A DNA stretch of 64,000 bases, taken from the NCBI RefSeq assembly GCF_001518815.1, contig NZ_CP013987.1, positions 4,672,501-4,736,500 on the forward strand. Direction: 5' to 3'. Source of the DNA: Pseudomonas oryzihabitans (GTDB lineage Bacteria > Pseudomonadota > Gammaproteobacteria > Pseudomonadales > Pseudomonadaceae). The position numbers were made by a program, and so were the translations under genes. Below are positions 36,593 through 40,806 of the stretch, in pieces. The notes below the pieces were generated by a model. That model ran no database searches, was not told the DNA's origin, and saw nothing but the letters and a program-made list of their open reading frames with translations. The first letter of the stretch is position 1. Every line of letters begins with the position of its first letter.

Positions 36593-37183
36593 CTAGCCGG
36601 CCGCCGCTGCCAAATCCTCGCCCGCGTCCAATAGCCCCTGACCGCCCTGGCGACAGGCCGCCAGCAATTCCTCGGCGAGCCCCTCGTCATCCAGCGCCCG
36701 CGCCAGGGCCACGCCGCCGATCAGGGTGGTGGCCAGTTGCAGCGCCTGGGTACGCCGTTGCGCCGGCGGCCCTGGTAGATCCTGTTCCAGACGGGCGACG
36801 AAGCGCGCGAAGAAACGGGTATAGCTGCTACGGATGGCGGCCTCCCGATGGGTGACGTCGGCCGCCAGAAAGGCCAGGGGACAGCGTAGCGACTCGCCCT
36901 CGGCGTGCGCGCGACTCAGGTAATGCTCGACCAGCTGGCCAAGGCCCTCGCCACCCAGGCTGTCGAGCCGGGCGCTGCCTACCTGGGCGGCATGGGCGAT
37001 AGCCTGGTCATAGAGCTCGGTCTTGGTGCGGAAGTGGTGGTAGAAGGCACCTCGGGTGAGACCGGCGTCGGTCATCAGTTCGTCGAGCCCGACGGCGTCG
37101 AAGCCCTTCAGCGCGAACAGGCGGGCGGCGCTGTCGAGGATGCGCTGGCGGGTCTGCGCGCGCTGATCAAGGGGCCAGGCCAT
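36593..37183 (-). CDS. TetR-family regulator
   Basis: 196 residues. The N-terminal helix-turn-helix is TRQRILDSAARLFALKGFDAVGLDELMTDAGLTRGAFYHHFRTKTELY. The ligand-binding half (70-190) shows CPLAFLAADVTHRE, a TetR_C subgroup that often responds to electrophiles or xenobiotics. It is divergent from a GST gene with an 18-base palindrome between them, so it probably represses that gene and itself. Confidence 0.9.
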   Translation of the reverse strand: MAWPLDQRAQTRQRILDSAARLFALKGFDAVGLDELMTDAGLTRGAFYHHFRTKTELYDQAIAHAAQVGSARLDSLGGEGLGQLVEHYLSRAHAEGESLRCPLAFLAADVTHREAAIRSSYTRFFARFVARLEQDLPGPPAQRRTQALQLATTLIGGVALARALDDEGLAEELLAACRQGGQGLLDAGEDLAAAAG

Positions 37184-37195
37184 GAAAACTCCAGA

Positions 37196-37213
37196 TTATG
37201 TTCTTGAACATAA
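37196..37213. promoter_or_regulatory. TetR operator palindrome between tetR and GST genes
   Basis: TTATGTTCTTGAACATAA: perfect 8-base arms TTATGTTC / GAACATAA around a TT centre, 13 bases from the regulator start and 47 from the GST start. Size and place are typical of an autoregulated TetR operator. Confidence 0.75.
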
Positions 37214-37259
37214 GGTCCCCTTTGCCAGCATCAGGCCTTCTTTGCAAGGAGCCTGATCC

Positions 37260-37895
37260 ATGACGCCCTATCTCTTCGGTCCCGCCTTCAGCACCCTGGT
37301 ACGCAGCGTACGCCTTCATGCCCTGGAAGGAGGCCTTGAACTACCCTGCGGCCTGGCCCCCGGTAGTCAGGCCGTCGCCTGGCGCAGCGAGGCCCATCTG
37401 GCACTGCATCCCTTCGGCCAGGTCCCCGTACTGCTGCATGGCGAGCAGCGGGTCTTCGAGACCCTCGCCATCTGCCGGTATCTCGACCGTCAGCTGCTAC
37501 CGCCCCGTGAGGCGGTCGACGACCCGGAGCAGGACGCCTGGGCCAGTGCCCTGCTGACCACCGTGGACACCCGCCTGATCCGCCACTATCTGCTGCGCGT
37601 GGCCGGCCCTCGTCCTCGTCCCTACCAGACGCCGGAAGAACAGCAGCGGGCCGTGGCCGAGGTCGACGCGACCCTGGCGGTGCTCGATCGCCAGCTGGGT
37701 GACAGGGGCTTTCTCTGCGGTTCCCGCTTCGGCCTGAACGATGCCCTGCTGGCACCGATGCTGGACTACCTGGAGCGCCTGCCGGAGCCGCGCTGGCTGG
37801 CTACCTGGCCGCGCCTGGACGCCTACCTCGCCCGCCTGCGCGCGCGGCCATCCGGCCAGGCGATCCTGGTGGCAACCGACTTCGCCCTGCGTTAA
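37260..37895 (+). CDS. Glutathione S-transferase family protein
   Basis: 211 residues. The N-terminal thioredoxin-like domain starts YLFGPAFSTLVRSVRLHALEGGL and contains the cis-Pro region FGQVPVLLHGEQRVFETLAICRYLD with the glutathione-contacting E-T/S pair (FETLAI). The C-terminal all-helical domain has FLCGSRFGLNDALLAPML. Likely a detoxification enzyme induced when the divergent TetR protein binds its ligand. Confidence 0.88.
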   Translation: MTPYLFGPAFSTLVRSVRLHALEGGLELPCGLAPGSQAVAWRSEAHLALHPFGQVPVLLHGEQRVFETLAICRYLDRQLLPPREAVDDPEQDAWASALLTTVDTRLIRHYLLRVAGPRPRPYQTPEEQQRAVAEVDATLAVLDRQLGDRGFLCGSRFGLNDALLAPMLDYLERLPEPRWLATWPRLDAYLARLRARPSGQAILVATDFALR

Positions 37896-37907
37896 GCCAG
37901 TCTTAAC
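37891..37907 (+). promoter_or_regulatory. Candidate response-regulator box before the mgtA leader
   Basis: GTTAAG-N5-CTTAAC: 6-base arms on a 5-base spacer, resembling the two-half-site boxes of OmpR-type regulators such as PmrA/PhoP. It overlaps the GST stop. A weak -10 (GCAATC at 37919-37924) would give a start near 37931. Mg2+-responsive control is an inference. Confidence 0.35.
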
Positions 37908-37985
37908 CCACCTCTGGTGCAATCGCCCCGCGCCACCGGCCTGCCCGGTGCGCACCCCCTTTCCAGACGGAGGCCACCGCGCCTG

Positions 37986-38024
37986 ATGAACCCCGACCCT
38001 AGTCCGTTACTCAGCGCCAGGTAG
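37986..38024 (+). CDS. mgtL: MgtL-like leader peptide of mgtA
   Basis: 12-residue ORF MNPDPSPLLSAR ending in TAG at 38024, 88 bases before mgtA. Salmonella/E. coli MgtL is [17 protein letters not shown] (from memory), so M-x-PDP-x-PL is conserved in sequence, spacing and gene position. In enterics the Asp/Pro-rich start makes translation sensitive to Mg2+ and proline and controls Rho-dependent termination before mgtA. A GGAGG lies 12 bases upstream, slightly far. Confidence 0.7.
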   Translation: MNPDPSPLLSAR

Positions 38025-38031
38025 CCCCGTA

Positions 38032-38057
38032 CGGCCGCCTGGCTTGCCAGGCGGCCG
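38032..38057 (+). promoter_or_regulatory. Strong hairpin in the mgtA leader
   Basis: Perfect 12-base arms CGGCCGCCTGGC (38032-38043) and GCCAGGCGGCCG (38046-38057) with TT at the tip, 7 bases after the leader ORF stop and 55 bases before the mgtA ATG. No U-run follows, so it may act as a Rho-linked or anti-structure element. Confidence 0.6.
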
Positions 38058-38112
38058 CGACTCTCGCGTGCCGCAGCCCGCTTATCGTGGCCCCGGCCAC
38101 GGGGAGTTCGCC

Positions 38113-40806
38113 ATGTTCAAAACCCTGACCCAACCCCTGCTGGAGTTCTTCAGCCAGCGCCTCGACCACCGCCTGTTCCGCCGCCCCGTCCTCTGGCAAC
38201 ACCTGCCCACGGGCCACGGCCGCAGCGAACCCCAGGCCGACTTCAGCCGCCGCCTGCACGAGGCCGCCAGCCTCGCCGAAGGCGACCTGTTGCGCCGCCA
38301 TCGCAGCAGCCCCCTGGGCCTGTCCGCGGCCGAGGCCGCCGAGCGCCGCGGCAGCGACGGCTACAACGAGGTCGAGCAGGACCAGAAGCTCAGCGCCTGG
38401 CGTCACCTCTGGCTGAGCTATCGCAATCCCTTCAACCTGCTGCTGACCCTGCTGGCCATCGTCTCGGCGCTTACCGACGACCTGCCCGGCGCCACCGTGA
38501 TCGGCACCATGGTGCTGGTGTCCACGGTGCTGCGTTTCGTCCAGGAATCGCGCTCCAACCGCGCCGCCGAGCGGCTCAAGGCGCTGGTCAGCACCACCGC
38601 CACGGTACTGCGGCCGGAGGCCGGCAATCCCTTCGGCGTCGAGGTACCGATCCGCGAACTGGTGCCGGGCGACGTGGTGCGCCTGGCCGCCGGCGACATG
38701 ATCCCGGCAGACCTGCGCCTGCTCAGCGCCCGCGACCTCTTCGTCGGCCAGGCCGCCCTCACCGGCGAATCCCTGCCGGTGGAAAAGCGCGCCCTCACCC
38801 TGACCGCCGCCGGCAGCGCGCTGGAGCTGGACAACCTCTGCTTCATGGGCACCAACGTGGTCAGCGGCGCTGCCACCGCCGTGGTCATCGGCACCGGTGT
38901 CGGTACCTATTTCGGTAGCCTGGCCGAGCGGGTGACCCGCGTCACCGAGGAACCCAACGCCTTCCAGCAGGGGGTCAACAAGGTCAGCTGGCTGCTGATC
39001 CGCTTCATGCTGGTGATGGCCCCGCTGGTGCTGCTGATCAACGGCCTGACCAAGGGTGACTGGCTGGAAGCGGCACTGTTCGCCCTCTCGGTGGCGGTCG
39101 GCCTGACCCCCGAGATGCTGCCGATGATCGTCACCTCCACCCTGGCCAAGGGTGCGGTGGTGCTGGCCCGGCAGAAGGTGGTGGTCAAGCGCCTGGACGC
39201 CATCCAGAACTTCGGTGCCATGCAGGTGCTGTGCACCGACAAGACCGGCACCCTGACCCAGGACCGCATCGTCCTGGAACGCCATACCGATGCCCGCGGC
39301 CGGCCCAGCGATGCCGTGCTGGAGTACGCCTATCTCAACAGCCACTACCAGACCGGGCTGAAGAACCTGCTCGACGTGGCGGTGCTGCAGCACGCTGAAC
39401 TGCGTGGCCTGAGCCTGGCCTATCGCAAGGTGGACGAACTGCCCTTCGACTTCGAGCGCCGGCGCATGTCGGTGGTGGTGGCCGACGGTCAGCGCCATCT
39501 GCTGGTGTGCAAGGGCGCCCTGGAGGAGATGCTCGCCGCCTGCACCCGGGTCCGCGAAGACGGCGTCGACCTGCCACTCACCGCCGAGCGCCTGGCGCAC
39601 ATCCGCACGCTCACCGCCGAACTCAATGACGAAGGCCTGCGCGTGGTGGCCGTGGGAATTCGCGAACTGCCCGGCGCCAGCCTCGACTACAGCGTCGCCG
39701 ACGAGCGCGATCTGGTGTTGATCGGCTACATCGCCTTTCTCGATCCGCCCAAGGAGACCGCGGTGGCCGCCCTGCGCGCCCTCGCCGCCCAGGGCGTCGC
39801 GGTCAAGGTGCTCACCGGCGACAACGAGCGCGTGACCCGGCGTGTCTGCCAAGAGGTCGGCCTGGAGGTGGACGGCCTGCTCACCGGCGCCGAGATCGAG
39901 ACGCTGGACGACCGCGCCCTCACCGCGCGGCTGGCCACCACCACGGTCTTCGCCCGCCTCACCCCGGCGCACAAGGAGCGCCTGGTCCGGCTGCTGCGTG
40001 ACCAGGGCCTGGTGGTGGGCTTTCTCGGCGACGGCATCAACGACGCCCCGGCGCTGCGTGCGGCCGACATCGGCATCTCGGTGGATTCGGCGGTGGACAT
40101 CGCCAAGGAAGCCGCCGACATCATCCTGCTGGAGAAGAGCCTGCTGGTGCTGGAAGAAGGCGTGCTGCAAGGCCGCAAGACCTTCGCCAACATGCTCAAG
40201 TACATCAAGATGACCGCCAGCTCCAACTTCGGCAACGTCTTCAGCGTGCTGGCGGCGAGTGCCTTCCTGCCCTTTCTGCCGATGCTGCCGCTGCACCTGC
40301 TGGTGCAGAACCTGCTGTACGACCTGTCGCAGACCGCCATTCCCTTCGACCACGTCGATGACGACCTGCTGACCCGCCCGCAGCGCTGGAAGGTGGAGGA
40401 CATCGGCCGCTTCATGCTGTTCTTCGGCCCGCTGAGCTCCATCTTCGACATCCTGACCTTTTTGGTCATGTGGCACGTCTTCGGCGCCAACACCCCAGCC
40501 CACGAGACGCTGTTCCAGACCGGCTGGTTCGTCGAAGGCCTGTTGTCCCAGACCCTGGTGGTGCACCTGATCCGCACCCGCCGCCTGCCCTTCGTGCAGA
40601 GCCGCGCCGCGGCCCCGCTGCTGATCATGACCGGCGTCATCGTCGCCATCGGCCTGCTGCTGCCTTTCTCGCCGCTGGCCGGCTACTTCCGCCTGCAGCC
40701 GTTACCGCTGGGCTACTTCCCCTGCCTGGTGCTCCTGCTGGCAGGCTACGCCCTGGTGGTCCAGGGCATGAAGGGCTGGTTCATCCGGCGCTACGGCTGG
40801 CAGTAG
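38113..40806 (+). CDS. mgtA: Magnesium-importing P-type ATPase MgtA
   Basis: 897-residue inner-membrane P-type ATPase (type IIIB) that imports Mg2+ with ATP hydrolysis. Motifs: actuator TGES (about 217-220), helix 4 [12 protein letters not shown], phosphorylated D376 in CTDKTGTLT, nucleotide-binding [19 protein letters not shown] and hinge [11 protein letters not shown] (about 640). C-terminal helices include [17 protein letters not shown], typical of MgtA/MgtB. ATG at 38113 ([13 protein letters not shown]) is chosen. The leader upstream encodes an MgtL-like peptide. Confidence 0.95.

Follow-up and report, generated by a model that had tools for sequence, protein, structure and literature searches.

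Whether a pseudomonad controls a magnesium-transporter gene through a ribosome-destabilizing leader peptide is the question raised by a 12-codon open reading frame before mgtA in Pseudomonas oryzihabitans. MgtL is a prominent case of ion sensing by a nascent peptide, which destabilizes the ribosome that makes it, and the MgtL work met in our literature search concerns enteric bacteria. Among the literature matches listed (titles and abstract openings from non-subscription literature), none describes an MgtL-like peptide in Pseudomonas. The Salmonella mgtA leader is reported to serve as an Mg2+ reporter in P. aeruginosa (PMC11218974), so a read-out of this type can work in a pseudomonad. The locus is analyzed here within a stretch of 64,000 nucleotides (the window) and compared with mgtA leaders from close and distant relatives.

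The mgtA gene (38113..40806, + strand) encodes a magnesium-translocating P-type ATPase of 897 aa, which scores 1320 bits with TIGR01524 (cut-off, 611); the name mgtA is used although the family models do not distinguish MgtA from MgtB, both models matching E. coli MgtA and the others tested. The gene upstream is not mgtC but a GST-like gene (37260..37895, + strand; family matches below curated cut-offs), and no MgtC family match is found in the window's genome. PF08918, the PhoQ sensor family, also has no match in this genome, a weakly informative result as the control matches in E. coli only. mgtA of this kind occurs in only four of 13 genomes of the window's genus which, with the absence of MgtC, gives a patchy distribution of Mg2+ genes.

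The upstream open reading frame (uORF; 37986..38024, + strand) encodes MNPDPSPLLSAR, starts with ATG at 37986 and ends with TAG at 38024, leaving 88 nt before the mgtA ATG at 38113; sequence, shuffles and cross-leader comparison mark it as a candidate MgtL-like leader peptide. The frame and its distance from mgtA agree with the initial annotation, and the N-terminus of enteric MgtL quoted there matches that of E. coli MgtL, which has 17 residues. GGAGG (37969..37973, + strand), a possible ribosome-binding site kept in three of the four genus sequences described below, lies 12 nt from the ATG. This spacing is long; counting likewise gives 11 nt for three Serratia leaders, 10 for Ewingella and for Hafnia, 9 for Rahnella and 4 for E. 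coli. When the 217-nt leader is shuffled with dinucleotides preserved, an ATG-led M-x-P-D-P frame of 5–25 codons appears once in 20,000 shuffles and an MNPDP frame in none of 20,000. Rfam searches of 37000–38500 with E up to 5 yield one match, on the other strand and far below the gathering score, and plasmid searches with the window leader and with the P. huaxiensis N-terminus find nothing.

OmpR-family regulators bind repeats of period 11. The palindromic box that had been proposed at the likely mgtA promoter is present: GTTAAGCCAGTCTTAAC (37891..37907, either strand) is an exact palindrome of the form GTTAAG-N5-CTTAAC that can equally be read as TTAA repeated with a period of 11, takes in the stop codon of the GST-like gene and is invariant in 16 of 17 columns of the four genus sequences. 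A possible −10 element, TGCAAT (37918..37923, + strand), follows 10 nt after the box. This arrangement looks like an OmpR-family promoter, which would drive a leader of about 185 nt from the putative start site. In the window's genome, GTTAAG-N6-TTAAS with at most one mismatch has 28 matches, versus 13 for the reversed control, and its two mismatch-free occurrences are at mgtA and at one further place. The same genome has boxes of the TTAAG type, likewise of period 11, at loci L159–L180, before frames that resemble, by eye, small exported proteins and, at L180, a response regulator.

Comparison within the genus covers the window, L055 (Pseudomonas sp. EpS/L25), L056 (MAG S3C122) and L003 (G010). 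At the aligned place the peptide is MRLAPCPSSTAR in L055, MRPDSSSSSIAR in L056 and IDSAPRSLSRAR in L003, where ATC stands for ATG; a PDP is thus present in one of the four sequences (the window), a start in three and a stop in all four. The initial annotation had counted a lack of PDP in close relatives against its own regulatory claim, and PDP is indeed absent from all three congeners with mgtA, one of which also lacks the ATG. Invariant columns number 8 of 27 in uORF codons 2–10, 9 of 11 in the uORF tail GCCAGGTAGCC and 19 of 25 in the arms and loop of the hairpin further downstream (Fisher p versus the uORF body, 0.005 for the tail and 0.001 for the hairpin). By codon position, invariant sites number 3 of 11 (first), 5 of 11 (second) and 5 of 11 (third), so that no coding constraint is visible among the four. 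Judged by the invariant columns, the four sequences conserve RNA segments more closely than the peptide. The three PDP-less congeners form a clade beside the window, which branches off before them (bootstrap 98 and 96), so a single loss would suffice there.

More distant pseudomonads retain what these congeners lack. The first seven residues of the window peptide, MNPDPSP, are common to uORFs that precede mgtA by about 160 nt in P. huaxiensis (L057, with the same sequence in L156) and G1239 (L157), both with MNPDPSPVSPRPGPDGG, and in G174 (L031), with MNPDPSPASPRPGPDGS. The gene before the uORF has MgtC domains in P. huaxiensis and G174, and G1239 aligns with P. huaxiensis there. Between P. 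huaxiensis and G174 the uORF is identical at 48 of 54 nt; the MNPDPSP codons match at 20 of 21, the sole change being silent, two codons of the tail encode different residues (V/A and G/S), and the stop is TGA versus TAG. Between the uORF stop and mgtA there are 83 matches, 21 mismatches and three gaps (p 0.09 versus the uORF), and the gap between mgtC and the uORF has 33 matches, 10 mismatches and 19 gaps (p 3e-5, gaps counted). P. huaxiensis and G1239 are identical throughout the uORF (54/54) and at 99 of 106 positions after it. This small sample suggests constraint on the uORF in these three genomes.

The pattern GGAG-N4..14-ATGRANCCNGAYCCNNNNCC has two matches in 398 Pseudomonadaceae genomes, in the window and in G174, both before mgtA; since the reversed control has three matches in the same 398 genomes, it is the position before mgtA, not the count, that carries the weight. 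P. huaxiensis and G1239 are not among these pattern matches, G1239 having first been met in another sample. P. otitidis, of the same MgtA clade, has a short mgtC–mgtA gap with no such uORF, and the second mgtA of G174 (L138) is without an MNPDPSP uORF. Nor is an acid-proline frame found in the main mgtA type of genus g8 or in the fluorescens-group leaders shown. The fluorescens-type leaders (L107, L112, L113, L051 and L053) are long, share a stretch around CAGTGGGTACTTGTTC and have no PDP frame. In L131 and L134 (Pseudomonas sp. 7P and P. helleri), a short frame, MTDGSRLRPPV or MNDGTRLRPPA, lies about 75–85 nt before the mgtA match and ends inside a GCCGCCTG...CAGGCGGC hairpin that adjoins the ribosome-binding site of mgtA; this frame may be a leader that stalls at Pro-Pro.

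Beyond Pseudomonas, uORFs were scored as acid-proline when GGAG, GAGG or AGGA lies upstream and P[DE]P or [DE]PxP falls within 12 residues, a motif set after the first loci had been seen. In 84 upstream regions, such uORFs occur in four of eight members of the pseudomonad MgtA clade, 26 of 28 enterics, one of two Achromobacter and none of 46 other MgtA loci, where shuffles predict 0.03, 0.07, 0.00 and 0.20, respectively; near kin within groups (L057 and L157; Serratia; Herbaspirillum and Collimonas) mean that the cases are not independent. The comparison draws on 80 loci that are the best of 573 and not a random sample, and L082, with too little upstream sequence, is excluded from the count. 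PDP is present in 18 of the 26 enteric uORFs and MDP(V/A)P in the other eight, all from Yersinia; Rouxiella L091 and L127, the two enterics that did not score, have MDPDP frames without the required Shine-Dalgarno (SD) sequence, and in the Achromobacter miss (L128) the peptide lies at the edge of the region. These leader comparisons support the view that one group of MgtA leaders is distinguished by acid-proline uORFs. An assignment of the enteric uORFs to MgtQ instead of MgtL was considered and set aside: in four loci (three Serratia, one Ewingella) the longest same-strand upstream frame, which may not be a real gene, has no Pfam match. Five ATPases from Serratia, Ewingella, Hafnia and Rouxiella are 72–74% identical to E. 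coli MgtA, and one from Yersinia is 71% identical.

In family f35, of the same class but another order, nine of 198 genomes match, and eight of these nine have M-DPDP uORFs; the peptide begins MDPDPAGR in six and MDPDPDGR in two, with GGAG 6–7 nt upstream, and lies 495–784 nt before mgtA. Across the six, 22 of 24 nt in the first eight codons do not vary, compared with 39 of 63 in the remainder (p 0.008). In L151 and L152, a 99-codon frame separates the uORF from mgtA. MgtA of the ninth genome (G890) is of a different type and no M-DPDP frame is present there, and two other distant matches (G425 and G751) have no such frame with ATG and SD. A palindrome, GCTATACC-AA-GGTATAGC, is conserved in six loci (L146 and L151–L155), where it precedes the M-DPDP uORF by about 100 nt. 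Both Achromobacter loci (L110 and L128) have a uORF reading MPSALDPEPRLRPVRG(I/S)GMP(V/I), with GGAG upstream, 370–410 nt before the mgtA match.

In MgtA trees, computed without Salmonella MgtB, the pseudomonad clade (window, three congeners, P. huaxiensis, G174 and P. otitidis) is firm (100/99 and 100/100), as is the grouping of enterics with E. coli MgtA. The joining of these two with Achromobacter has support of 71/97 and 73/97, and 23 in a quick run; another run moves Achromobacter to the opposite side. MgtA of f35 joins at a different point, which implies a separate gain or many losses, and the uORF label then needs at least four changes. The trees, whose deep branches are weak or shift between runs, do not support a single origin of the uORF or, with f35 included, the proposal that the peptide is the ancestral sensing element; an old origin with losses and repeated gain could each account for the distribution. 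Acid-proline PDP-type uORFs may be a recurrent Mg2+-sensing module of mgtA leaders well beyond enterics, which at least four lineages (enterics, one pseudomonad MgtA clade, f35 and Achromobacter) would have retained or evolved anew while the surrounding RNA is replaced; the destabilizing nascent peptide would then be the conserved sensor and the RNA read-out interchangeable, a reading that we find quite possible though just short of probable.

The RNA downstream of the window uORF contains complementary segments. The perfect 12-bp hairpin without a U-run described in the initial annotation is found at 38032..38057 (+ strand) as a GC-rich 12+12 palindrome with 2 nt between its arms (38032–38043 and 38046–38057), which in RNA gives 11 bp and a 4-nt loop; lacking a U-run, it has none to serve intrinsic termination. 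The uORF tail with its stop codon, GCCAGGTAGCC (38016..38026, + strand), is complementary to arm 1. A possible anti-SD segment, GACTCTC (38059..38065, + strand; missing in one of the four genus sequences), faces in predicted folds the mgtA SD, GGGGAG (38101..38106, + strand).

In the RNAalifold consensus of the four genus sequences, arm 1 has the uORF tail as its partner and not arm 2. When the tail is tested against arm 1, a target picked after the fold had been seen, the shuffled uORFs that pair as well number, of 2000, one for the window, one for L055, 25 for L056, 118 for L003 and none for P. huaxiensis or G174. Against the whole 60 nt downstream, shuffles as good number, of 1000, 66 for the window, 181 for L055, 93 for L056, 37 for P. 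huaxiensis and 18 for G174; nine enteric loci and E. coli give 36 to 840, with 158 for E. coli, where a switch is known. In partition functions of the window, the arm 1–arm 2 pairing has a probability of 1.00 in ribosome-free RNA, 0.62 when a ribosome occupies the stop codon and 0.96 when one sits at PDP, and tail–arm 1 pairing stays at 0.00–0.04, not being favored at equilibrium. Folding does not favor a tail/arm 1 switch in the window: the pairing is strong against arm 1 alone, weak and not significant against the whole downstream stretch (66 of 1000 shuffles as good) and not seen in the partition functions. The mgtA SD is predicted to be paired (0.94–0.98) in every ribosome position tried. 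For anti-SD/SD pairing, in which the segment was chosen after folding, mononucleotide shuffles as good number 30 of 1000 in the window and 42, 101 and 657 in three congeners. An SD–tail stem is equaled by 363 of 1000 shuffles in the window, and the E. coli stem by 310 of 1000 in the same test.

We infer that the uORF is translated and responds to Mg2+ through ribosome drop-off, with an output that would be either transcriptional (MgtL-like) or translational (MgtQ-like). Ribosomes on MNPDPSP would be prone to stall or fall off at Pro-Asp-Pro when Mg2+, or charged tRNA-Pro, is low; their progress on the uORF would set the state of the uORF tail, the 38032–38057 hairpin and the anti-SD segment over the mgtA ribosome-binding site, and failed translation of the uORF would allow mgtA to be made. 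On the sequence evidence, the window frame is somewhat more probably than otherwise such a translated, ribosome-destabilizing regulatory leader of the MgtL/MgtQ kind, kept in the window and lost in its sisters. The initial claim of an MgtL-like PDP peptide in a pseudomonad is supported in part: three other pseudomonads (P. huaxiensis, G1239 and G174) have MNPDPSP ahead of mgtA, but residue 2 is Asn and PDP is gone from all three congeners.

That loss, together with the better conservation of tail (9/11) and hairpin (19/25) than of the uORF body (8/27), would also fit a decaying relic, in which the ancestor had an MgtL-like uORF and control in the window's genus has passed to RNA structure (hairpin and anti-SD) while the peptide is being lost; yet in the window MNPDPSP, GGAGG and both the start and the stop codon are intact, and its branch departs ahead of the three PDP-less congeners. 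Decay is regarded as unlikely. A chance frame in a GC-rich leader would account for the long SD spacing and for the variable amino acids among congeners, but would have to arise at a frequency of one in 20,000 shuffles and, by coincidence, carry the heptapeptide that stands before mgtA in other pseudomonads; it is very unlikely. The MgtL-like uORF of the window is real; it draws more support from distant than from close relatives and is most likely a variant of the known ribosome-destabilizing leader peptides.

Two further readings are sub-cases of the MgtL/MgtQ leader, so that their probabilities overlap with it. Aborted uORF translation might free the mgtA ribosome-binding site instead of preventing termination, as the acidic codons of Salmonella mgtQ are reported to do in the mgtC–mgtB gap (PMC8092293). 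The position of the P. huaxiensis and G174 uORFs in the mgtC–mgtA gap is in keeping with this translational switch, as are the anti-SD pairing of the window (30/1000) and its paired SD (0.94–0.98). It is nonetheless rather doubtful, given that the anti-SD segment was chosen after folding and performs variably in congeners (42, 101 and 657 of 1000), that the SD is paired whatever the ribosome position tried, and that the window's mgtA has no mgtC before it and its genome no MgtC family match. Alternatively, the peptide might sense proline or EF-P through Pro3, Pro5 and Pro7, and not act through acidic residues: all three prolines are kept and an acidic residue 2 is not, and the proline codons of Salmonella mgtL are reported to be required for the EF-P effect (PMC6460261). 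Asp4, however, belongs to each MNPDPSP detected, and the enteric and f35 peptides have a further acidic residue at position 2; this alternative appears unlikely. For the MgtL/MgtQ-type leader as a whole, the natural variants, in which residue 2, tail and RNA differ, show which parts are kept, namely Pro3-Asp4-Pro5, the start and the position before mgtA, and which are swapped. They provide ready-made test constructs, and the loss in sister species provides a natural comparison.

Set beside MgtL of E. coli and Salmonella, the window uORF is likewise a short frame in the leader of an Mg2+ P-type ATPase gene, with M-x-PDP-x-P, prolines at 3, 5 and 7, Asp4 and hairpins downstream. In E. coli MgtL, changing Glu2 and Asp4 together to Gln and Asn is reported to abolish mgtA expression (PMC11282234), and in Salmonella mgtL the prolines are reported to matter for EF-P (PMC6460261). 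Residue 2 is Asn in the window, whereas enterics have Glu or Asp there, and residue 9 is Leu, whereas prolines alternate at 3, 5, 7 and 9 in MgtL (PMC6460261); the frame has 12 codons versus 17, and the leader sequences, compared by eye, are not alike. The enteric mgtA leader is reported to form two exclusive structures, and Rho is reported not to have been detected for E. coli mgtA (PMC11552253). MgtQ of Salmonella, which is reported to free the mgtB ribosome-binding site through Asp2 and Glu5 (PMC8092293), resembles the window uORF as an acid-residue frame before an Mg2+ ATPase with possible sequestration of the ribosome-binding site, and the mgtC–uORF–ATPase order is the same in P. huaxiensis and G174. 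It differs in having 8 aa with Asp2, Pro4 and Glu5 (PMC8092293), and the window gene is not beside mgtC. The f35 M-DPDP and Achromobacter MPSALDPEPRLRPV uORFs found in this analysis have longer leaders than the window, with the 99-codon frame intervening in L151 and L152, but are like the window uORF in their acid-proline character, their upstream GGAG and their place in the region before mgtA.
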